The translations under genes and the position numbers were made by a program. Under the pieces are notes generated by a model. It made no database searches. It saw only the letters and a list, made by a program, of their open reading frames with translations, and had not been told where the DNA came from. Shown piece after piece: positions 11,573-30,299 of a stretch of DNA of 32,048 bases (position 1 is the first letter of the stretch; each line of letters begins with the position of its first letter). The stretch is from a virus. The stretch lies in IMG/VR virus record IMGVR_UViG_3300035158_000330, positions 1 to 32,048 of that record; one strand, written 5' to 3'.

Positions 11573-12574
11573 TTATGTGGTGTGCGCGTCGTAGAAGAGA
11601 TAACCCAAATCGTTCCCGGTCAGCTTGGCATCGATATCCATGAAAGCCTCAATCCTGTCCGAATGGATCTTCTCCTCACGCCATTTGCGCACACCGACGG
11701 GCATCGCATCAGAGGGAGCCTGCTGAATGAGGCCGGCCAGCGCTGCGCGCACCCAGCGGAAGAGCACTCCCGCTGTGGGTTGCTTTGGCCCGACTATGCG
11801 CGGTGCATACAGAAGCACTCCGGAGCCTTTGTCGGCGTTGGTCTCCCAGATCGCCGCAGGCGTGAAGTCGTCGCCCGCAGCCGTTTCTTCGGCCGTGGAG
11901 TAGACGGCTCCACCCACAAGGCAGCGGTCGAGGCTGAACATGGCCGCAACCAGGTCCTCGGTGACCACGCCGCGCTGGGTATATTTGATTTTGTCCAGCA
12001 CCGCATCATCCTGGCGGATGTTACTCCAGGTAGTGGCGTCAACAACCAGCACATTGGGCCTGTGGCCGGTATTGGATAGCACCGTCTTGATGCCCTTCTC
12101 TATGTCGGCAATGAAAGTGCTGGATGATCCGGCAGTCCAGCCACCCGCGGCATCCTCGGAATGTCCGCTGGCCCAGTTGGCGGCTGTCAGTACCAAAGCA
12201 GCTACGAGCCGCTCCAATCTGAGCAGGATTTTATTGACGCAGAATTCGGTTGCGTCTTGATCCGGCTTCAAAGGCTGGTCGGCGTTTTCGCGGATCTCGT
12301 CGGGCACGTCGTCGTGCCAGGCCCATTCATCGCATGAATAGGTGTCTGTGGTTATGGGAAAGCCGCCGCCTCGGCTCGCCGTGCCAGGAGCGCGCATGGC
12401 GGCCTCGTCGCGGAACCAGGCGCCCTTGAGAAACTTGAAGAACTTGTCGCTCTTTTTGGCCACGCGCAGCATGGAGAGCACCCGCAAGGCGATGTACTCC
12501 GCGTTTTTGTAACGCATGGCGAAGTTGGTAAGAGGCGCATCAATGTGCACGTCTTTTGCTGTTGGTTGGGGCAT
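11573..12574 (-). CDS. Major capsid protein (HK97-fold type)
   Basis: This 333-residue protein is encoded after the protease/scaffold and decoration genes, behind GAGGAGGG. Typical features include a start with ...LTNFAMRYKNAEYIALRVL, a segment around RGGGFPITTDTYSCDEWAW, and a central PNVLVVDATTWSNIRQDDAVLDKIKY region, which is a common P-domain signature of phage capsid proteins. The size suits Mu-like siphophages. It forms the icosahedral shell around DNA. It does not obviously match Mu gpT, so the head subtype is nearer B3/D3112. Confidence 0.8.
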   Translation of the reverse strand: MPQPTAKDVHIDAPLTNFAMRYKNAEYIALRVLSMLRVAKKSDKFFKFLKGAWFRDEAAMRAPGTASRGGGFPITTDTYSCDEWAWHDDVPDEIRENADQPLKPDQDATEFCVNKILLRLERLVAALVLTAANWASGHSEDAAGGWTAGSSSTFIADIEKGIKTVLSNTGHRPNVLVVDATTWSNIRQDDAVLDKIKYTQRGVVTEDLVAAMFSLDRCLVGGAVYSTAEETAAGDDFTPAAIWETNADKGSGVLLYAPRIVGPKQPTAGVLFRWVRAALAGLIQQAPSDAMPVGVRKWREEKIHSDRIEAFMDIDAKLTGNDLGYLFYDAHTT

Positions 12575-13068: not shown

Positions 13069-13701
13069 TTAGCCCTTGCTACGGCCGGCCTCCAGATAGC
13101 TCTCGGCCAGCTCGGGATTTTCTGCAGCCACCAGATTCATGGCATCCTGATAGCTCAGGTCCTTGTTCTCCTTCTGCTTCTTGGCGATCAGCCGATCCAT
13201 CTTCCCCTGCGGTGTCCCGCCGCCCGCGTCCGGATCTTCCGGCGGTAGGTCCTTGAGTGGCACTTCGCTGTACTCGCGACGCCCCAGGACGACCTTTTTG
13301 AACCGCTCCGGGTCTTTGAGCGCCATCTCTCGGCCATACTCTTCCACCTGGGCAGGAGTGATCTGTCCCTTAGCGGTAGCCTTGGCAATGAGCTCGTCGG
13401 CGGTGCGCTCGTCCCACTTGTGCTTCAGGGCCTCGTGGTCCTTTTTGAGTGACTGGAGCTCAGTTTCCAGGTCGCTCTTTTTCCCTTGGGCCTTGCGCAG
13501 TTCTTGCACCTTGGCCACCACCTTGTCCTTGTCATCGGATTGATCGACTTCGAGCGCTTCCAGGATCTCCTTGCAGGCGACCACCTGGCCGGCTTCCTCA
13601 AGTTCTTTGTTCTTGGCCACCAGGCCCTCAACGGCCTGCACCATCTCCTCCTCGCTGGCCTCTTTTGCGAGGCCCAGAAGCTTCTTTAGCTTCTCAAACA
13701 T
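13069..13701 (-). CDS. Scaffold protein Z, internal in-frame start within gene I
   Basis: At 13701 an in-frame ATG (MFEKLKKLLGLAK, residue 271 of I) is preceded by GGAGGTGATC, an unusually complete match to the 16S anti-Shine-Dalgarno sequence, at about ideal spacing. This would yield a 210-residue protein equal to the scaffold region of I. In Mu, and in lambda C/Nu3, the scaffold is made from just such an internal start so that it outnumbers the protease. Residues 1-140 are strongly helical and the C-terminus is rich in charged residues. Confidence 0.8.
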   Translation of the reverse strand: MFEKLKKLLGLAKEASEEEMVQAVEGLVAKNKELEEAGQVVACKEILEALEVDQSDDKDKVVAKVQELRKAQGKKSDLETELQSLKKDHEALKHKWDERTADELIAKATAKGQITPAQVEEYGREMALKDPERFKKVVLGRREYSEVPLKDLPPEDPDAGGGTPQGKMDRLIAKKQKENKDLSYQDAMNLVAAENPELAESYLEAGRSKG

Positions 13702-14511
13702 AGGATCACCTCCATGCTTAAAAGTTTTTGTTTCACATTTTGCCGCCAGCGCCCGGACATTCATCATCCGGGGCTGATTGGTAAGCGCCACATTGTAAAG
13801 CTCAACTATTCTGTTGTCGGACCGGCGGCGCCAGAACACCGGTGAGAAGTAGCGATATTCCCGTTTCTGAATGTAATTTGCGGCCTCCTCCGTCCAATCG
13901 GTGCGAGCCCATAGTCCCTGCTTGTCGCGCCATTCCAGTTCTTTTATCCAGCCGGCTGCCGGTGCCTTCTCTCCCGAAAGCGTCTGGTGTTCGTAGTCGA
14001 TCACCATGTCGTGCTCAAGGCTGTTAAAGTGGGCCAATACCAGCGCGGCCCCTTCCTCGTCCATAATCGCCGGTTCCTCGTCTTCGATTAGCACTTCGCC
14101 ATATGGAAAGAGCTGGAACCATTCAGGCGCCTCGGCGAGCTCGCCGGCGGTGCGAAGCGCGTAGAGTTTCGCCTCCTCCTTTTCCTTTCCGTCAAGAGCT
14201 TCGATGAGCCTGCCCGCAGCGGCGAAGACGTCGCCTTCTTTCTGCTGCCCCGCCCGTTGCCGGATGGCGATGAGCGCGGAGCGATAGACCTGCCCGCCCT
14301 TGCCGAACGGGTACTTGTAGCGCTCCTTGGTCTCCTCGTTGGCGCTGGTATCAACGGCCAAGTGCCAACGGGAGTATTCGTCCCAATCGGGAGGATCGCC
14401 TAGAATGCGGTTTTCATCCTCCGCCGAAATGCCCCAGTCTGCGGCCTTGTTGACCTTGCCCTGTCTGATCAGGCTCATGGCGTGTCTGTATCCGGCTTGA
14501 TTGAGCTTCAT
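13069..14511 (-). CDS. Mu I-like head maturation protease with C-terminal scaffold
   Basis: This 480-residue protein has three parts. Residues 1-125 are a charged helical region common in such proteins (YRHAMSLIRQGKVNKAADW). About 125-265 is the protease domain, with HDMVIDYEHQTLSGEKAPAA containing the conserved His and Ser region, and ALTNQPRM near its end. Residues 271-480 are a helix-rich scaffold that includes a coiled coil. In Mu the protease I contains an in-frame scaffold Z at its C-terminus, and the same organisation is visible here. The start overlaps the MuF stop (ATGA), so translation is probably coupled to ribosomes finishing the full-length MuF frame. Confidence 0.88.
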   Translation of the reverse strand: MKLNQAGYRHAMSLIRQGKVNKAADWGISAEDENRILGDPPDWDEYSRWHLAVDTSANEETKERYKYPFGKGGQVYRSALIAIRQRAGQQKEGDVFAAAGRLIEALDGKEKEEAKLYALRTAGELAEAPEWFQLFPYGEVLIEDEEPAIMDEEGAALVLAHFNSLEHDMVIDYEHQTLSGEKAPAAGWIKELEWRDKQGLWARTDWTEEAANYIQKREYRYFSPVFWRRRSDNRIVELYNVALTNQPRMMNVRALAAKCETKTFKHGGDPMFEKLKKLLGLAKEASEEEMVQAVEGLVAKNKELEEAGQVVACKEILEALEVDQSDDKDKVVAKVQELRKAQGKKSDLETELQSLKKDHEALKHKWDERTADELIAKATAKGQITPAQVEEYGREMALKDPERFKKVVLGRREYSEVPLKDLPPEDPDAGGGTPQGKMDRLIAKKQKENKDLSYQDAMNLVAAENPELAESYLEAGRSKG

Positions 14512-15257
14512 GATTCACCTCTCAATTCATCTTCCAACATCTTTCTGGCTTCCGGTTCGTACTTATCGAGATCCGGCTGCCAGGAATCCAGCCCGGCCTT
14601 GCCAGGGTTGTAGCGCCAACCCTCGTCCGGCCTCTCGTTCACTCCCCGCGTCTCTTCTTTCAGGCCCCTTTGCTCCATCTGCCGCACGGACAGGGTCGTC
14701 ACATAGCAGCGTCACCCGAATCCGTTCGGCGGATACCACTGGTCCCAAAATGGGTGGTCCGCGTGATAGACCTTGTTGTGCTGATTAACGTGATCCTCAC
14801 GGCTAGTCTTGTATCGAACGGATTTGTACTGCCAATATGGCCTCCGTTCTTTGACCTCCTGCATCTGTTTGTAGCGGCCGACACTATAGGAGGTCTGAAG
14901 GTTCGCCCGGTAGATGGTCTCCAGCCGCCAGGGAGTGAGCCGCTTGACCACCGTGCCGTCTGGGAGTGTTATCTCGGCATCCACGCCGCTCGGCGCAAAC
15001 CAGCCCCTGCGTTCCAGCAGCTTTCCGAGGTCTTTCTTGAACTGCCCTAGGCTGATTCCATCGGCCAGGGCCTTATCCACCGCCTCGCGGACGTCCACCA
15101 GGACATCCATCGAGGTCACACGCGCCACCGTAAAAGAGCGAGCGTGCGCCGCCTGCCACACGTCCCGCCAGCTCTCTAGCGAAAATTCAAAGCCCTTCTG
15201 CCGGAAGAAATCTATCGCCTCCTGGAAGGGCAGGTTTCCGTAATTGACTTCAGGCAC
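14508..15257 (-). CDS. MuF-like head morphogenesis protein, split by an in-frame TGA (candidate selenoprotein)
   Basis: Read through, this is a 249-residue MuF (SPP1 gp7-type) minor head protein that associates with the portal. The N-terminal portion is helical. The conserved C-terminal part reads YRANLQTSYSVGRY, HPFWDQWYPPNGFG, then TGA (codon 182, at 14712-14714), then RCYVTTLSVRQMEQRGL and DEGWRYNPGKAG. Homologues have Cys at the TGA position (GF[NG]CRC). The frame after TGA is open for 67 codons, keeps family motifs, and ends in ATGA overlap with gene I. Either UGA is decoded as selenocysteine (Sec182-Arg-Cys184) or a recent nonsense change truncates F at 181 residues. It is shorter than Mu F itself. 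Confidence 0.8.
14679..14693 (-). promoter_or_regulatory. Candidate bacterial SECIS hairpin downstream of the MuF TGA
   Basis: On the minus strand, 18 bases after the TGA, CTGTC-CGTGC-GGCAG folds into a five-base-pair stem with one G-U pair and a five-base loop. Two more C-G pairs are possible below a two-base bulge. The loop begins 23 bases after the TGA and has G as its second base. This fits the relaxed bacterial SECIS rules (loop 3-14 nt, a G in the first two loop bases, stem of at least 4 bp, loop 16-37 nt from UGA). Short hairpins are common by chance, so this is supporting rather than decisive. Confidence 0.5.
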
Positions 15258-16830
15258 TGTCTCCCTCTGCGGCGGCGAAGCCCGTCAGCCCCGCCGCGAA
15301 CACGGCCCGCGTAAGCAGCTCCTGGAAGTCGCTGCTGTCCAGATTCGGATAGAGCCCGTAAATCTTCTCGCCGATCTCCTCCAGGGACCCGGCGCTCTCG
15401 ATCATCTCCAGAACGGGCTCCAGGAGTTTCGAGATTGCCTCCTCGGCCTCTTGCGCCCCCTGGGACGAAAGTTCGTCTGCGTCATCCTGACCGAAACGTT
15501 CAGGGGCCGATTTCAGAGCATAGAACCGCTTTTTCAGCGACGTGGGCATTGTCGGAGTCTGCAGAAGCGTCTCTCCCTCCTGCGGCATAGGCACGCTGAA
15601 GCGCTCGGATACGTGTTCCGCCGATATGGGCTGCCCCATCTCCGCGAGGTTCTTGTAAACCTCCGATAGTTCCTTGAGGTCCTCCGGCTCCTGCAGGTAG
15701 AACCGGAACCACGGCACCGGCGCGTCCCAGCCGAAATTGAAGCCCACAAGCGGTCTCAGTAACTGCATCCTCACGGTGTTGGACAGTGCCCAACTATCGG
15801 ATTTCACCAGGTCCAGCCGCACTTCGTTGTGCGTCTTGCTTGCTGCAAAGGAGCCCCTTTCTCCCACCTCTGTGGTCAACGTGGCGCCTACGATGGCTTT
15901 ACTCATTTCCCGGTTGCAGAAGGACGCTAGGGTATTGAATATGTTTTCCTTGGTTGCAGCCTTGAGCGCCTCAATGAATTCGATTTCGGTGTTCTTACTG
16001 ATAATGCCCGCTGCATCGGTGCCGAGCGATTGAATAGCATCGCGTAGCGCTTCCTTGTCCTCCTTTGATGCACCCGGTTCGTATTTCCCAACCCGCAGCG
16101 GCATGCCGAAAACTTCCGCAAAACGAACCCAGTCTTTGATGGAATAGTTTTTGAACAGATACATCCAGGCGCAAACCCGCAGCATCCCTACCCGCGTGTC
16201 GTAACCGCTCCTGGCCTTATGGCGGTGGTAGATCACCTTGAAAGGTTGGATATCTTCGCCGCCCCGGTTCTCTTCAGTGATCAGCTTCGGCTCCAGGCTG
16301 TCCACGAAAGTGAACCGTTTCTGGTGAATCCATTTGAGCTTGGCCGGAATAACCTTGCCGCCACTTACTTCCCAGACGATTTCGCATCCAGAAAAGCCCT
16401 TGCCGATGGCGTCCAAAAGGTCAAAAAGCGCATCCTCGAAAGAAGGCAGTGAAAAGGTCACGTCCTGACAGAACTCCAGCACCTTGTCTGTTTGTGCGGG
16501 TCTGCCCCGGCTCCTCTTGGTGGCGGGAGTCCTGGCCCCCTCCTCGTAAGGCAAAATATCGTAGTCCAGCCCCATCACTGCGTTTTTGCGTTTCAAGATC
16601 TCTGCAGAAAGATGAGTGTCCTTTTCCTCCATTTCCTCAAAGAGTTCAGCCTGACTGTAAACATCGCCCTGATCTGCAAACTTCAGATAGGAGGCAAGCT
16701 TTTGCGGCGTGAGTCCTTCGGATGGATAGCTGCTCCAGCGGTCACTGATCGCGACGGTTGATATTTCTTTCGTATCAGGCTTCTTGAGGTCCTCGATCGG
16801 CCTGCCGAACTGGTCAACCAGCATTGCCAT
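15250..16830 (-). CDS. Portal protein, DUF935 (Mu gp29-like)
   Basis: This 526-residue protein carries family landmarks: DRWSSYPSEGLTPQKLASYL near the N-terminus, EMEEKDTHLSAEILKRKNAV (about 65-85), YLFKNYSIKDWVRFAEVFGMPLRVGKYEPGA (about 225-255), and FCNREMSKAIVGATLTTEVG (about 305-325). It forms the dodecameric DNA channel at the head vertex. It follows the large terminase with a one-base overlap and overlaps MuF by eight bases, the standard Mu order. Confidence 0.93.
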   Translation of the reverse strand: MAMLVDQFGRPIEDLKKPDTKEISTVAISDRWSSYPSEGLTPQKLASYLKFADQGDVYSQAELFEEMEEKDTHLSAEILKRKNAVMGLDYDILPYEEGARTPATKRSRGRPAQTDKVLEFCQDVTFSLPSFEDALFDLLDAIGKGFSGCEIVWEVSGGKVIPAKLKWIHQKRFTFVDSLEPKLITEENRGGEDIQPFKVIYHRHKARSGYDTRVGMLRVCAWMYLFKNYSIKDWVRFAEVFGMPLRVGKYEPGASKEDKEALRDAIQSLGTDAAGIISKNTEIEFIEALKAATKENIFNTLASFCNREMSKAIVGATLTTEVGERGSFAASKTHNEVRLDLVKSDSWALSNTVRMQLLRPLVGFNFGWDAPVPWFRFYLQEPEDLKELSEVYKNLAEMGQPISAEHVSERFSVPMPQEGETLLQTPTMPTSLKKRFYALKSAPERFGQDDADELSSQGAQEAEEAISKLLEPVLEMIESAGSLEEIGEKIYGLYPNLDSSDFQELLTRAVFAAGLTGFAAAEGDSA

Positions 16831-18329
16831 CAGTAGGCTCCTCTCTGTGTGCCAAAACGCCGTTTGCTAACACTTTCATATTCAATCGGGCCGCCTTCCA
16901 TTGTGGTGGCCGCATACCAGGCCAGAGCTCCAGCCACTGCCGCATCACCATGCCGCTGGCCGCCGTCTCTGCCTTTACTTCGCAAGGTTTCCGGTACTTT
17001 TGCGACGCCCTTTTCCATGCGTACGGCCCGATGGTCATCCAGAATGTCTGCGTCTTTGGGCAGCGTAATGCTCCCGTCTTCAAAGGCCGCCTTGTAGCGC
17101 GGCATGTTGTCCCTGTACCATTCGTTGCTCAACATTACCTGAGCGATCCGCCAGGAGCCGTATCTCTGCATGGCCACCTCGGCCAGATACTGGCCGTTTC
17201 CTCGCGCATCCAACGCTCCGCCTGAAAAGCGTGGCAGCCGGTCCACCAGGTAGAAGAGAACCTGCTCCTGCTGCCGGAAGGGCACGTTTCTAAGCTCAAT
17301 TGCGCAGGGTGGCCGATAGTGCAGCCCTGGGTTCTGTTGCAACGGCAGGATCACGGTCAGGTCGCCGGTGCGGCCGAAATCCTCGCCGAAAGAGGTAGGC
17401 CAGTTCGGCTCCAGCTTCTCAAGCACCGGCGCCAGGTGTTCCTCGCACCAGGCTGCGGCCTCCGCCTCGCGAATCCGGTCGGAAAGCTGAGCAAACTCCG
17501 TCTTACAGGTCCAGCGCAAAACCGGGATGTCCGGGTCCATGCAAGCCTCGATCAAAGCGCGTGGCAGGTAGATGCCGCTGCCTCTGCTCGGGATGCAGAA
17601 GAGCTCCTCGTCGGCATGCTCGCCATAGAAATTTATAAGCTCCTGGCGCCAGTCGGCCTGGGCTTCGGGCGTCCACTTCCGGTTGAGCCGCAGACAGATC
17701 CGTTCATAGAGCCCCTGAGCCAGGGCCTCGTCCAATGTTGTCCGGTGCAGGCTGTAAGGCTTCTTGCCGGCGCGGATCTCGCCGATGAGTTCGTTGAAAG
17801 GATTCTCGTCGCCGTCGTGGGTGCTGATCACGGCCACCTTGCCGCCCCACATAAGGAAGGCTATCGCCGCCTTGAGCAGGCCCTGTAGGTCGTCGTGAAA
17901 AGCCGCCTCGTCGATTACGGCTTTGCCCTGTTTGCCGCGCAGGTTTGAGGGCCGGGAAGAAAGTGCGACAACCTTCCACCCGGAGGCAAATCGCAGCCTG
18001 AAAGCCTGGATGTCCTTTTTCTCGTCTTCAAAGACAAACTCCTCGATCCGGGCGGCAGCAAGGTTGTAGTGCCTGGCCCAATCGGCGGAATCTTCGATGA
18101 ATTCCAAAGCCATGTCCTTGTTGTATCCCGTATACCAGACGTCCATGCCGTCCTTGCTGGCTGCCGTAAGGGCGTCATCACCGGCCTCTGCCCATGAGGC
18201 CCCGATCCGCCTCGACTTCTCCCAGAGCTTCACCGGACTTTGGTCTTCGATCCACTTCTGCTGGTAGGGCAGCAGCACCGCCGGTGTGCGTTGGGATCTG
18301 TTCTCTTTCCCGGCCCAGCCTTTCATCAC
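16830..18329 (-). CDS. Terminase large subunit (Mu gp28-like)
   Basis: This 499-residue packaging motor has an ATPase half with a non-canonical Walker A around residues 37-45 (EKSRRIGAS), Walker B at 138-143 (VIDEAA) and a coupling ISTHDGD motif (about 169-174). The RNase H-fold nuclease half carries GEDFGRTGD at 315-323 and H460-G-D462, consistent with the acidic metal-binding residues. It cuts and translocates DNA into proheads. In Mu-like phages packaging is headful and takes host DNA at the ends. It follows directly on the small subunit gene. Confidence 0.93.
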   Translation of the reverse strand: MMKGWAGKENRSQRTPAVLLPYQQKWIEDQSPVKLWEKSRRIGASWAEAGDDALTAASKDGMDVWYTGYNKDMALEFIEDSADWARHYNLAAARIEEFVFEDEKKDIQAFRLRFASGWKVVALSSRPSNLRGKQGKAVIDEAAFHDDLQGLLKAAIAFLMWGGKVAVISTHDGDENPFNELIGEIRAGKKPYSLHRTTLDEALAQGLYERICLRLNRKWTPEAQADWRQELINFYGEHADEELFCIPSRGSGIYLPRALIEACMDPDIPVLRWTCKTEFAQLSDRIREAEAAAWCEEHLAPVLEKLEPNWPTSFGEDFGRTGDLTVILPLQQNPGLHYRPPCAIELRNVPFRQQEQVLFYLVDRLPRFSGGALDARGNGQYLAEVAMQRYGSWRIAQVMLSNEWYRDNMPRYKAAFEDGSITLPKDADILDDHRAVRMEKGVAKVPETLRSKGRDGGQRHGDAAVAGALAWYAATTMEGGPIEYESVSKRRFGTQRGAY

Positions 18330-18886
18330 TACTCACCCAGTAAAATCTTGCGCCTGATCTCGTCGGCCGCCTCTGCAGACAAGCCGCCCGGAGCTGGCTT
18401 GCCTGCCTGCTTGGCCGCTTTCTCCTGACGAACCAGCTCCGCCTCGACTTTTTTGGCCGCCGCCTGTGCCCTTATCAATTCGGCCACGGCGATGATGGCC
18501 GAGCTGGTAGACTTTGTTGTCTTGGTCAGCGTCTCCAGGTCGGCATTGGCCGCCAGGATCGCCTCGGCGCCGATGGAGATCACCAGGTTGGTGAGCGCCT
18601 CGGCGTTATTGTCCATGTTCTGCGGCATCAGGCCCGCCACAAGCTGAGATAGCGTCTCGCGTCGCTGGTGCAGTGCCCGCTCGTTGCGAAGCGCCTCGTA
18701 ATAACGGCTGATGGCCCGGCCGGAGATGTCGCAGCCGTGCGATCTGGCGAGTTCCTCGGCCGACTCCTCGGTGAGGTCGCGCCGGTCGAGCTTCTCGATG
18801 ATCTCGTCCTGGAGGTCATGAGGCAGCTCCAAAAACTTGTGCCGGGCCTTTTTGGCCCGCGCCAGCATCAGGTCCCTGTGATTCAT
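18329..18886 (-). CDS. Terminase small subunit, DUF3486 (Mu gp27-like)
   Basis: This 185-residue helical protein matches DUF3486: LPHDLQDEIIEKL, then EELARSHGCDISGRAISRYYEAL (a helix-turn-helix-like segment, about 40-65), then a long helical region including LVISIGAEAILAANADLETLTKTTKSTSSA. It recognises the packaging start near the repressor-proximal end and feeds the large subunit. Its start overlaps the previous stop by four bases (ATGA). Confidence 0.88.
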   Translation of the reverse strand: MNHRDLMLARAKKARHKFLELPHDLQDEIIEKLDRRDLTEESAEELARSHGCDISGRAISRYYEALRNERALHQRRETLSQLVAGLMPQNMDNNAEALTNLVISIGAEAILAANADLETLTKTTKSTSSAIIAVAELIRAQAAAKKVEAELVRQEKAAKQAGKPAPGGLSAEAADEIRRKILLGE

Positions 18887-20089: not shown

Positions 20090-20632
20090 CTAACCCGCCG
20101 CAAGATCGGCGTAATTCCTCAATCCGAGCCCGATCGCTTCCGCCAATGCGAGCTGGTTTTCCGGCTCCCTCAACCACTGTCTAGTTTCGGGATTGGACAA
20201 GAATTCGCACTCGATTAGACAAGCTGGACAGTGGCTTTCTCGCAACACATAGAAATTGGACTGCTGCACGCCTCGCTGCTTGTGATCCGGAAATTTATCC
20301 ATAAGAGCCTGAGCTATGGCCTCGCCCAAAGGCTCGCTGACAAGCGTCTTCTCATAGATGTGGACGCTCATTCCCGAGATCGTGGTGTTATGGAAAGCAT
20401 CGCAGTGGATCGAGACAAAGAGATCCGCGCCCCACTTATGCGCCAGCCAGCACCGGTGATAGAGTGAAATTGCGACATCTCTCTGCCTGGAGAGCATCAC
20501 CTTAAAACGGTGATCGATAAGAACCGGCCGCAGCAAAAGAGCAATGCTCAAATTGATGTCGTCTTCTTCGGCATATCCCCACGCAGCGCCGTTATCATCA
20601 CCACCATGCCCAGGATCGATAAATACCTTCAT
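20090..20632 (-). CDS. N-acetylmuramoyl-L-alanine amidase (Amidase_3), endolysin
   Basis: This 180-residue zinc-dependent amidase begins MKVFIDPGHGG, with zinc ligand His9. The family acidic ligand is at Glu22/Glu23, the second His is in SIHCDA (His76), and the catalytic Glu is in LIECEFLSN (Glu141). It cleaves the bond between MurNAc and the stem peptide to lyse the cell. The protein is a bare catalytic domain without signal peptide, so export depends on the holin encoded next. Its start overlaps the stop of the upstream small gene by one base. Confidence 0.92.
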   Translation of the reverse strand: MKVFIDPGHGGDDNGAAWGYAEEDDINLSIALLLRPVLIDHRFKVMLSRQRDVAISLYHRCWLAHKWGADLFVSIHCDAFHNTTISGMSVHIYEKTLVSEPLGEAIAQALMDKFPDHKQRGVQQSNFYVLRESHCPACLIECEFLSNPETRQWLREPENQLALAEAIGLGLRNYADLAAG

Positions 20633-20799
20633 TATTCCAACCTCTGATCTCTCTCAGTCTGCATGGCCCTGAGCCGCTCCGAATAACCTTTCACGGCCGG
20701 GCACCACCCTTTCTCTTGAAACACCTGGCATACAAAATCTGACGGCCTCTTGTCCGCCGGGCAGTGAATACACTCGTAATGCGCGCCCCAAAGTGCCAT
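20632..20799 (-). CDS. Small Cys-rich protein upstream of the endolysin
   Basis: This 55-residue reading frame starts ATG at 20799 (MALWGAHYECIHCPADKRPS) and ends in TAATG overlap with the amidase, so the two are probably translated together. It has four Cys (CIHC, then DFVC and GWCP), suggesting a small zinc knuckle, and no membrane segment. AAGGGG upstream is a weak ribosome site. It fills the otherwise unexplained 185-base gap between two genes. The family is not recognised. Confidence 0.6.
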   Translation of the reverse strand: MALWGAHYECIHCPADKRPSDFVCQVFQEKGWCPAVKGYSERLRAMQTERDQRLE

Positions 20800-20817
20800 G
20801 CCCCTTGCCTCTGTGGC

Positions 20818-21132
20818 TCAGATCATCGGAGATTCCTCAACCGCTTCGAAAATATGCGCCCTTTCCGGCGCCGGCATGATCGCCAGCTTGCCCGCGTCGG
20901 GCCGGGCGCTCGTCCTTATGTAAATGAAAGTGATCGCCCTAGGGTCGAACAGCTCTGTCATGTGCACCCCGTCCGGCGCCACCAGAAAGAACCTGCTCCC
21001 CAGCGCCAACTCCTGCTCAAAGGCCCTATAGAAGTCCCGCACCGTCGCCTCGGCCCTGCCGTCAAGCTGGACCTCCGCCTTCGCCTGATAGGCGCAGAAG
21101 TCGATGATTTGCGCTTTTTTCGATTCGCCCAT
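20818..21132 (-). CDS. Unknown protein, first gene of the late operon
   Basis: This 104-residue soluble protein (IIDFCAYQAKAEVQLDGRAEATV..., RFFLVAPDGVHMTELFDPRAITFIYI) belongs to no family I recognise. Its start lies only 11 bases past a strong terminator hairpin (21144-21187), so it is made only if transcription passes the hairpin. The ribosome site is poor. Position suggests a late-operon or lysis-timing role, but nothing in the sequence confirms it. The next gene begins 18 bases on. Confidence 0.6.
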   Translation of the reverse strand: MGESKKAQIIDFCAYQAKAEVQLDGRAEATVRDFYRAFEQELALGSRFFLVAPDGVHMTELFDPRAITFIYIRTSARPDAGKLAIMPAPERAHIFEAVEESPMI

Positions 21133-21143
21133 CGGCAGCCCCC

Positions 21144-21187
21144 AAAAAAACCCGACCTATCACTCGCAGGTGATAAGCCGGGTTTTT
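21144..21187 (-). terminator. Strong near-symmetrical terminator between early and late genes
   Basis: AAACCCG...CTATCAC pairs with GTGATA...CGGGTTT around a short loop, flanked by A-run and T-run, so it could act on both strands. On the minus strand it ends in seven T residues. It lies past the last early gene and directly in front of the late operon's first gene, just after a promoter-like sequence (21197-21225). It is therefore both an early-operon stop and a potential leader attenuator. Confidence 0.85.
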
Positions 21188-21196
21188 CCCGTCCTT

Positions 21197-21225
21197 ATCA
21201 TATGTTGTAAGGGTTTACGCTTCAA
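21197..21225 (-). promoter_or_regulatory. Candidate late promoter
   Basis: The minus strand carries TTGAAG (21225-21220), a 17-base spacer and TATGAT (21202-21197), a good sigma-70-type match. Transcription would begin near 21190 and meet the hairpin at 21187-21144 almost at once. Confidence 0.5.
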
Positions 21226-27448: not shown

Positions 27449-28192
27449 CTATTTCCCGCGCAGCCCCTTCTTGATCGCCGCTTTCACCATCTCGACCGTA
27501 GCTGTATGGGTCCCGTTCGCCTTGGCGATCTTGCCGGTCTCCCACAGGTCCCGCTTGATGAGCCTGAAGTCTCCGCCGCTTGCCTGCTCCAGGAGCTTCG
27601 CACCCTCTGGCGGGATCTCCAGGCCGCTCCAGGAGCCATCACCGTTTTGGATCTCGATGGCCTTGGCCGCATAATATTTTGCCTCGGTAGCGTCGATAGG
27701 TCCGAACTGCACCGTCTGGTAGGTTCTGCTCCATACCCTGCGGTTTCGCTGCATCAGCGGTAAAAGCTCCTCTTCGCCCACCATCACGAACGGGCAGCCG
27801 GTAATGTCCGCCAGGTCCCGGATGGCCTCAAGCAGGCGGTAGTTGATCTTGTCCGCCTCGTCGATAAACACCGGGCGCGGGTTCTTCCTGAGCGCGTCTA
27901 CTATGAGCATGAAAGCCTTGGCCTTTCTGCCGGGGATTTCCATCTCTTTGACGCCGACCTCCCGGCACAGATCCTGGAGCATCCATAGCTCGGTCCAGAG
28001 CACCAGCGCACGCAGATACACGTAGCCGTTTTCCGCATGCTGCTGGATCGATGTCCTGGTCTTGCCCCGGCCGGCTCGGCCCCAGGCGGCGACCAGGACG
28101 CCTTCGTCCAGGCTCAACACCGAATTCATTGCAACCAGAAAATTCCGCACGTTCTCAGTCTGGATAAAGGTAGGATTAGTCCTAAATTGCAT
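27449..28192 (-). CDS. Transposition target-capture ATPase B (MuB-like)
   Basis: This 247-residue AAA+ ATPase starts at ATG 28192 (MQFRTNPTF), behind GGAGGAG and 11 bases inside transposase A. Walker A is GRAGRGKT at 38-45 and Walker B VFIDEAD at 108-114. The sensor-like GCPFVMVGEEEL and the C-terminal helical domain (GGDFRLIKRDLWETGKIAKAN) fit AAA_22-type MuB proteins. MuB forms ATP-dependent filaments on target DNA and delivers it to the transposase. It is shorter at the N-terminus than Mu's own B (312 residues), as in other Mu-like phages. Confidence 0.92.
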   Translation of the reverse strand: MQFRTNPTFIQTENVRNFLVAMNSVLSLDEGVLVAAWGRAGRGKTRTSIQQHAENGYVYLRALVLWTELWMLQDLCREVGVKEMEIPGRKAKAFMLIVDALRKNPRPVFIDEADKINYRLLEAIRDLADITGCPFVMVGEEELLPLMQRNRRVWSRTYQTVQFGPIDATEAKYYAAKAIEIQNGDGSWSGLEIPPEGAKLLEQASGGDFRLIKRDLWETGKIAKANGTHTATVEMVKAAIKKGLRGK

Positions 28193-30299
28193 AGTTCTCC
28201 TCCTCGCCCGCAAGGAGCACCTCGCGCACCATCTCGAAACGAGGCTGATAGATTTTGAAATCCTCAGTTCCCTCGTACCAGCGCATCCAGCGCATCTGAT
28301 CTATGGTCAGGTTTTCGCCTGCGAGCTCCTTCCGCAGATATTTTTCATAGCGTGCGGGCTCTGAGAGCGCGATTTCGGGCTCTTCCTTGGGCTTCAGCCC
28401 GATTACCTTGAGCTTCGCCGCCTCCCGCTCGATCCGCTCCGCCTCGCCCGGCGTGATAATTAGCTCTTTGTTGCCCTTGGACTCGATCCCGGCGGGGAGG
28501 GCCTCTGTGCCCGTTGGGCGGGCCTCTGTGTCCGCCAAAGACCGGCAGTTCCCCGCCAAGGTGTTCTCTATGAACCCTCGGAGCTCTTTTTCGGTGTCGC
28601 GCTTGAGTTCCCGCTTCATCCGGATGGCAGCCTTCACCTTCCCCTCGTCCTCCTCGGTGCCGAGAATCCGCGCCACCGGGTGGAGCGGCTTGACCGCCTC
28701 GGCCTCACAGATGAGCTTCGAGCCGTCTTCGGTACAGACCAGGACTGAGTCCGGCTGGCCAAAGTCGTATTTGACCAGCACCCGGTGCTTCCTGCCGTAG
28801 AGTTCCGGGCTGTAATAGCTGGCGCCGTTCAGGCTGATTCCGTTTCGCCCGATGGATCTCACGGTGCGGTTCATCATCAGGTGCCTGAGTGCAACCGAAT
28901 CCACCCCCGGCCCACGCCCTTCGCTGAAAACCTCCCAGGGTGTGCGGCCGCCCAGGCTGTCTTTCGGCTCTCCGGCGTATTCTCCCACCCAGGATCTGAT
29001 CATCTCGTGCGCCTGGTGGATGTCGGGGACAAAGTCGCCGAAAAGTTTTTTGTGGAGTTTTATGTGGAGCTTCTCGTTTCGCTTCAGCCTGGCCGGCTGG
29101 TTGTCGATGGAGGTACCCACATAGGTCGGCATCATCCGCTCGAACTCACTGAAGTATCCAAACCAGCGCTCGACGAGCTTCGATTGCGCGTTATATGGCC
29201 AGGCGAAAACCGTCATGATCCCGAGGCGCGCGAACATGCCGTAGAAGCCCGCCTCCTCGAAGTCGATGGTCGTGTCGGTGAAAACCTTCGCCTTGAACGC
29301 TTTGCCGTTGTCTAGATAGGCCACCTTCGGCACCTTGCCCAGGGCCAGGATCGCGCGCCTGAGTCCGGCCGCAACGCATTGGGTGTTCTCTGTGGGCATG
29401 ATCTCCCACCCGGCCGGGTATCGGCTTGCCATGTCGTACCAGACAATGAGCGACATCCTGGCATCCTTGCCGGTAAAAGGATCTTTGATGAGGAAGTTGA
29501 GCTTGTGGCCGTCGGCGACCAGGACGTCGCCGACTTCAAGCAGCGATAGGTCTCTCTGTATATAAGGTAGGACCTTGTCGTTGAGCGCCTTCTCGCCCTC
29601 GCGCATCAGCACCCAACGGTCGTAATTCTCTTTTTTCCACGCTGTGACGGCTCGCTTGTAAGTATCTTTATGGCAGCCGGGCTGAATTCCCCGGCGCTCC
29701 ATCGTTTTCATGGCCAGCCGCACCGCCCTGTCCAGCGGGAACCTGTGCGGGTGGAGTGCGAAAGATAGCACCAGGTGAAACTCTTCATCACTCACCTTGG
29801 TCGTTCCCTTGCGGTTGCCCCAGGCCGGCGCCAGCACCGTGTAGTCCCGGCCGTTGTCCTTGAACTTCTTGAGCTTCCTCTCAAGCGATTGGTAGCTAGT
29901 TGTGCCGGTCAGCTCGAAGAGTCTCGGATAGAGCAGCCCGGAGTTGTAGCCTTTCACAAATTCCTTGGCTGCGGCCGTAACGGACCGCTTCCGGGTCTTG
30001 GCCAGCCGTTTGGCCTTCTCGTATTCCCGTATCAAATCCGCCCAGGCAAGCGCTTTCTCGTTCTGCCAGTCGGTGAGCTCCGGGCACCACACCGCCACCG
30101 CACCGCCGCCGTTGCCGTCCACGGCGAAGCGGATGTCTTCCGGCAGCATGTCCAGCCGGTATACCTTCACCTTGCCGCCCCTGGATTTTCGCCACGTAAA
30201 GGGCCAGCTCTCCATGTTCGCCCGCCGCTGTATTGTTCGCGCGGTTTTGCCAAGAACGCCTGCAATCTCTCTCGCCGTCGGCCAGCATTCCGCTTGCAT
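28182..30299 (-). CDS. DDE transposase A (MuA-like)
   Basis: This 705-residue transposase has an N-terminal winged-helix, Mu-type DNA-binding region (CWPTAREIAGVLGKTARTIQRRA, residues 5-27). The catalytic RNase H-fold core carries Asp263 (VLVADGHK), Asp330 (YLDNGKAF) and Glu377 (KLVERWF), the DDE triad, at spacing close to MuA (269, 336, 392). The C-terminal Mu-type beta-barrel follows (NRTVRSIGRNGISLNGASYYSPEL), then basic helices that would bind B. It catalyses strand transfer in integration and replicative transposition. AGGAG precedes ATG 30299. Confidence 0.95.
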   Translation of the reverse strand: MQAECWPTAREIAGVLGKTARTIQRRANMESWPFTWRKSRGGKVKVYRLDMLPEDIRFAVDGNGGGAVAVWCPELTDWQNEKALAWADLIREYEKAKRLAKTRKRSVTAAAKEFVKGYNSGLLYPRLFELTGTTSYQSLERKLKKFKDNGRDYTVLAPAWGNRKGTTKVSDEEFHLVLSFALHPHRFPLDRAVRLAMKTMERRGIQPGCHKDTYKRAVTAWKKENYDRWVLMREGEKALNDKVLPYIQRDLSLLEVGDVLVADGHKLNFLIKDPFTGKDARMSLIVWYDMASRYPAGWEIMPTENTQCVAAGLRRAILALGKVPKVAYLDNGKAFKAKVFTDTTIDFEEAGFYGMFARLGIMTVFAWPYNAQSKLVERWFGYFSEFERMMPTYVGTSIDNQPARLKRNEKLHIKLHKKLFGDFVPDIHQAHEMIRSWVGEYAGEPKDSLGGRTPWEVFSEGRGPGVDSVALRHLMMNRTVRSIGRNGISLNGASYYSPELYGRKHRVLVKYDFGQPDSVLVCTEDGSKLICEAEAVKPLHPVARILGTEEDEGKVKAAIRMKRELKRDTEKELRGFIENTLAGNCRSLADTEARPTGTEALPAGIESKGNKELIITPGEAERIEREAAKLKVIGLKPKEEPEIALSEPARYEKYLRKELAGENLTIDQMRWMRWYEGTEDFKIYQPRFEMVREVLLAGEEENYAI

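Follow-up and report, generated by a model that had tools for sequence, protein, structure and literature searches.

For the most part, the selenoproteins catalogued in bacteria are cellular redox or metal enzymes. A 2026 inventory describes 119 prokaryotic selenoprotein families and subfamilies with their bSECIS elements, among them thioredoxin-like proteins with UxC or CxU motifs and metal-binding proteins with UxxU (PMC13188914). The viral selenoproteins named in a review are the glutathione peroxidases of molluscum contagiosum and fowlpox viruses (PMC8310308). MuF proteins (PF04233; Mu gpF/gp30, SPP1 gp7) are components of the phage head. MuF genes are neighbors of the portal gene, each SPP1 capsid has one or two copies of gp7, which bind the portal, and the function of the MuF domain is unknown (PMC5576092). 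Here, we describe a MuF gene with an in-frame TGA and compare it with its relatives; Mu-like phages of anaerobic bacteria appear to build selenocysteine (Sec) into this minor head protein, at one or both positions of a C-x-C motif.

The DNA analyzed, referred to below as the window, is a viral record of 32,048 nucleotides (32 kb) that carries a Mu-like phage gene set: transposase, transposition protein, GemA, a Gp27-like protein, terminase, portal, MuF, head protease, major head protein, and tail genes. In its packaging module, the MuF gene comes right after the portal gene. The genes that define this context are as follows.

28182 to 30299, minus strand: Mu A-type transposase (PHROG 310, E 1.5e-104)
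27449 to 28213, minus strand: Mu B-type DNA transposition protein (PHROG 296, E 7e-36)
18329 to 18886, minus strand: Mu Gp27-like protein (PF11985)
16830 to 18329, minus strand: terminase large subunit (PHROG 2, E 2e-34)
15250 to 16830, minus strand: portal protein, immediately upstream of MuF (PHROG 113, E 6e-144)
13069 to 14511, minus strand: head maturation protease (Mu I-like), ATGA overlap with MuF (PHROG 328, E 1e-62)
11573 to 12574, minus strand: major head protein (PHROG 1005, E 1.5e-76)

The window's MuF was assigned to PHROG 220, "minor head protein and DNA pilot" (E 1.5e-79), and exceeded the curated cutoff of the Pfam model Phage_Mu_F (PF04233; 67.1 against 29.6 bits). It fell below the cutoff of the NCBIfam model for SPP1 gp7 (TIGR01641, phageSPP1_gp7; 31.6 against 39.65), and none of the NCBIfam selenoprotein models matched it. 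It thus shares with the MuF family the domain, the position after the portal gene, PHROG 220, and an invariant His with the C-x-C motif, but differs in that the window and its TGA-containing relatives encode one or both of the motif's Cys residues as TGA and carry a SECIS-like hairpin. The features of the gene that matter here are listed below.

14508 to 15257, minus strand: MuF minor head protein gene (PF04233, PHROG 220), 249 residues if its single TGA is read through (Sec182)
14790 to 14792, minus strand: codon for His156, the invariant partner of C-x-C, invariant in alignments of 31 and 53 rows
14712 to 14714, minus strand: in-frame TGA, predicted Sec182, position 1 of the invariant C-x-C; most relatives have Cys here, and many lineages have TGA
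14706 to 14708, minus strand: TGC for Cys184, position 2 of C-x-C; TGA in other lineages
14679 to 14693, minus strand: SECIS-like hairpin CUGUC-CGUGC-GGCAG; Sec forms have it or an equivalent, Cys forms are without it

The MuF frame runs from a GTG start at 15257 to a TGA stop at 14510-14508, which overlaps the ATG of the next gene as ATGA. As the original prediction had stated, a single TGA interrupts it (14714-14712, codon 182, between PPNGFG and RCYV), and 67 codons follow. That these codons are family-like was also borne out: the PF04233 match crosses the TGA, scoring 67.1 bits when the codon is read through and 52.9 bits when the protein is truncated. An open stretch of 67 codons is expected by chance in about 8% of cases at 56% GC and so is not decisive alone; homology and selection are decisive. 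Alignments of 31 and 53 MuF rows showed R153, H156, C182, and C184 to be invariant and D167 to be nearly so.

The predicted coincidence of the TGA with a conserved Cys held up among relatives. In 40 related viral loci, the column of the first Cys was TGC or TGT in 36 and TGA in 4, the latter from two lineages (L014/L015 and L036/L037). A scan of 2.9 million viral contigs followed, using a single long MuF motif in which only the two Cys codons were varied. It returned 28 stretches with TGA in place of the first Cys, 12 with TGA in place of the second, and 4, from three lineages, with TGA at both (U-x-U), along with at least 120 that have Cys at both positions. The same scan found neither TAA nor TAG at the first Cys, nor TGG, which like TGA is one step from TGC or TGT. 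All TGA forms stay in frame and continue through to C-terminal sequence typical of the family (for example, GIDPGWDYNPGK), save one ended by a contig edge, and 14 of the 32 distinct Sec-MuF open reading frames use TGA as their own stop. The TGA forms, which are not phylogenetically independent, fall into 30 clusters at 80% identity and 15 at 60%. A genome collection yielded four TGA forms, one each from Desulfovibrio cuneatus, a Desulfobacteraceae bacterium, a Bilophila, and a Nitrospirae bacterium. The D. cuneatus form (strain DSM 11391, L081) belongs to a prophage and is identical in sequence to viral locus L054. Among 69 readable loci of one clade, 57 were Cys/Cys, 6 TGA/Cys, and 6 Cys/TGA, with no TAA or TAG; a phylum-wide pattern survey gave two matches only (G002 and G019).

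Two annotated phages were checked for a split MuF gene: Chromohalobacter phage YPCBV-1 has ordinary Cys, and for Pseudomonas phage CF5a the motif did not resolve the locus. Three Desulfobacterota-type genomes (G137, G223, and G300) contain MuF homologues with an internal TAG, the matches being weak in two and stronger in G300 (E 3e-20); these could be pseudogenes, assembly errors, or cases of amber recoding such as pyrrolysine. Several MuF loci, Cys and Sec forms alike (L002, L003, L053, L054/L081, L057, L061, and L062), have long unrelated C-terminal domains after the conserved MuF region, resembling described MuF polymorphic proteins. In Sec-form MuF, these domains would be made only if the UGA is decoded.

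Coding constraint persists after the UGA. For two pairs with unsaturated dS, the dN/dS values upstream and downstream of the TGA were 0.10 and 0.11 (L057/L058) and 0.15 and 0.10 (L057/L068, with 244 codons downstream). Between the window and its nearest relatives, downstream dN/dS was 0.15 to 0.21 where computable, with dS high or, for several values, saturated. On a tree of 88 MuF domains, built by a quick method and with many weak branches, parsimony required at least 15 changes between Sec and Cys, 7 of them forced by well-supported branches. Sec forms are interspersed with Cys forms on this tree, and in one clade U-x-C and C-x-U forms are sisters (L051/L070). Together with the U-x-U of three lineages, all four motif states occur (CxC, UxC, CxU, and UxU). 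Cys and Sec forms appear to interconvert repeatedly.

The hairpin of the window (CTGTC-CGTGC-GGCAG, 14693-14679) starts 18 nt after the TGA. The bSECIS rules call for a loop of 3 to 9 nt with a G in its first two positions, located 16 to 37 nt from the UGA, and a minimum free energy of −7.5 kcal/mol or lower (PMC13188914). With its CGUGC loop, a distance of 23 nt, and −9.4 kcal/mol, the window's hairpin satisfies them, as the original prediction had proposed, although by itself it is not significant against synonymous shuffles (P = 0.45), so that its significance comes from the relatives. We compared the folding energy of positions +18 to +42 after the first-Cys column with that of synonymous-codon shuffles. 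Sec forms had a mean z of −1.19 (n = 31; Wilcoxon, P = 9e-7), whereas Cys forms had no excess stability (mean z of +0.10, n = 37), and the two differed from each other (Mann-Whitney, P = 3e-6). The bSECIS rules were passed by 31 of 35 Sec sequences, with 20.0 predicted from synonymous shuffles, and by 37 of 74 Cys sequences, with 35.6 expected; as with the clusters, the sequences behind these hairpin statistics are not phylogenetically independent.

Sec forms carry the hairpin in two registers. In the window's register, pairing reached 93% over nine Sec lineages, pair 3-13 flipping from G-C to C-G, against 67% without covariation for the same columns in nine Cys sequences. The other register showed 100% pairing, and in three of its six pairs both partners had changed; TCC/GTG, TCT/GTA, and TCG/GTC, all synonymous, are among these changes. 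One sequence of that register (L223) has a largely rewritten stem and has kept the CGUGA loop. Since the rows of these covariation alignments were hand-picked for register, the shuffle-energy and bSECIS-rule statistics are the fairer tests. Two Cys forms of the clade (L168 and L169) have a SECIS-like hairpin that is nearly or fully intact, and perhaps are recent Sec-to-Cys reversions.

The genomes of relatives with a TGA-form MuF, as distinct from the window's own host, encode Sec machinery: SelB over the curated cutoff was present in 4 of 4, tRNA-Sec in 4 of 4, and SelA in 6 of 6. SelA is common in genomes of the same phylum with a Cys-form MuF as well (17 of 20), so the host association shows consistency, is weakly discriminating, and was rejected as a decisive test. 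The nearest relative of the window's MuF in a genome (G428, 65% identity) is a Cys form with SelA present.

On these sequence data, selenocysteine at codon 182 of the window's MuF is very probable. The reading is supported by the alternation of Cys and Sec, recurrence in many lineages, the lack of any other stop or of Trp in the scans, purifying selection downstream, a covarying hairpin specific to Sec forms, and Sec genes in the hosts that could be checked. The original prediction had also offered an alternative in which UGA readthrough determines how much short and how much long MuF is made. In this view the UGA is leaky, the short product has 181 residues, and the identity of the inserted amino acid does not matter. 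One gene could give both products in this way, and the truncated form still scores 52.9 bits against PF04233. We nevertheless disfavor this idea as improbable, because the stop is TGA in every case and never TAA or TAG in the scans, because it falls exactly on one or both invariant Cys codons, including U-x-U, and because the SECIS-type hairpin at SECIS distance is missing in Cys forms; the short MuF would, moreover, be without the invariant C-x-C. A nonsense mutation, pseudogene, or sequencing error would take a single substitution, TGC to TGA, in what is a viral-contig record, but it is very hard to reconcile with a TGA that recurs in about 30 lineages and also in the genomes of the four bacteria named above, with the absence from the scan of TGG, also one step from TGC, and with a dN/dS downstream that equals the one upstream. 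A phage code with TGA as a sense codon throughout would account for the reading through of TGA in MuF and is scarcely credible: TGA ends 15 of the 35 main open reading frames of the window, in agreement with the predicted use of TGA as an ordinary stop elsewhere in the phage, and the same 14 of 32 distinct Sec-MuF frames. No tRNA gene was found in the 32-kb record, and hence no suppressor tRNA in the window, and an Rfam search of the window gave no matches.

With Sec accepted, the question of its role divides more evenly. Instead of working as a redox pair, Sec and Cys may bind a metal together with the invariant His156, perhaps joined by Asp167, a reading to which we give a little less than an even chance. 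It draws on the invariance of H156, C182, and C184 and the near invariance of D167, on the interchange of U-x-C, C-x-U, and U-x-U, as would befit ligands, and on the presence of UxxU among the motifs of metal-binding selenoproteins (PMC13188914). Against it, UxC and CxU are also given for thioredoxin-like selenoproteins (PMC13188914), and the MuF model has no structural match to any metal-binding fold. Searches with solved structures, Foldseek, and VIA-align, using the full MuF model and a confident domain model (residues 105 to 235, pLDDT of 91.8), returned nothing usable and did not place the C-x-C. We infer that a redox or cross-linking role and a metal role of the C-x-C site are about equally likely.

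Under the selenoprotein reading, the host's SelB and Sec-tRNA, together with the hairpin just after the UGA, would insert Sec at codon 182 during late gene expression. The product would be a 249-residue MuF head protein with the invariant His156 and Sec182-Arg-Cys184, and the phage would depend on a Sec-decoding host. Since U-x-C, C-x-U, and U-x-U occur in different lineages, the two motif positions look like interchangeable chalcogen sites; this interchangeability and the U-x-U forms would favor symmetrical roles. Most likely, to judge from the motif states, the two chalcogens act together as a pair, which may be a selenenylsulfide or diselenide serving in redox chemistry or as a cross-link or may bind a metal with His156. 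A further idea, which we consider rather unlikely, is that of a selenium switch in the virions of phages of Sec-using anaerobes: the U-x-C or U-x-U of the portal-associated MuF would take on a state, with an Se-S bond, an Se-Se bond, or a bound metal, able to sense or resist the reducing conditions of the host cytoplasm while the head is assembled or during delivery, tying productive infection to the selenium status of the host.

The MuF locus resembles known bacterial selenoprotein genes in having an in-frame UGA for a conserved Cys, Cys homologues, and a hairpin 16 to 37 nt downstream with a G in the first two loop positions, but it differs from the catalogued proteins (PMC13188914) in that MuF is a phage head component. 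With the poxvirus glutathione peroxidases (PMC8310308) it shares a virus's use of the host Sec machinery; those, however, are enzymes that eukaryotic viruses captured from their hosts, with a eukaryotic SECIS, whereas MuF is a morphogenesis protein native to the phage, with a SECIS of the bacterial type. Sec-MuF would be a new bacterial-type selenoprotein family inside a known phage head family, an earlier buried mention being possible. It appears to be the first phage selenoprotein described, as far as literature searches reach: searches for a phage selenoprotein found none, and the main texts of selenoproteome papers and reviews name no phage or MuF selenoprotein, although supplements may hold a mention. 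The main text of the 2026 inventory (PMC13188914) contains no MuF or PF04233, phage, virus, capsid, or prophage, and the suggestion in the original prediction that MuF-like Sec proteins feature in selenoproteome surveys was not confirmed.

If the reading is right, a head protein that repeatedly gains and loses Sec at either or both Cys of its motif means that phages use the 21st amino acid in morphogenesis, and selenium would be both a host-range and a nutritional factor for them. The C-x-C of MuF would then have a real chemical role, and in CxC, UxC, CxU, and UxU nature supplies a set of mutants with which the site could be tested. Gene callers probably cut MuF short in Sec-using lineages.

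Elsewhere in the window, a 166-codon frame on the minus strand (20632-21132) also contains a single in-frame TGA (20818-20820), and its far end joins the amidase gene as TAATG. We rejected it as a second selenoprotein gene: no Cys is known from relatives at the position of this TGA, 14 related phage records contained no relative of the frame, and downstream of the TGA there is a separate ATG with a ribosome-binding-like sequence. The frame probably represents two genes. Just before the gene that starts at 21132, at about 21140 to 21200 on the minus strand, lies a terminator-like inverted repeat followed by a T run (aacccggcttatcacctgcgagtgataggtcgggttttttt), which sits between the GemA region and the lysis and packaging genes.
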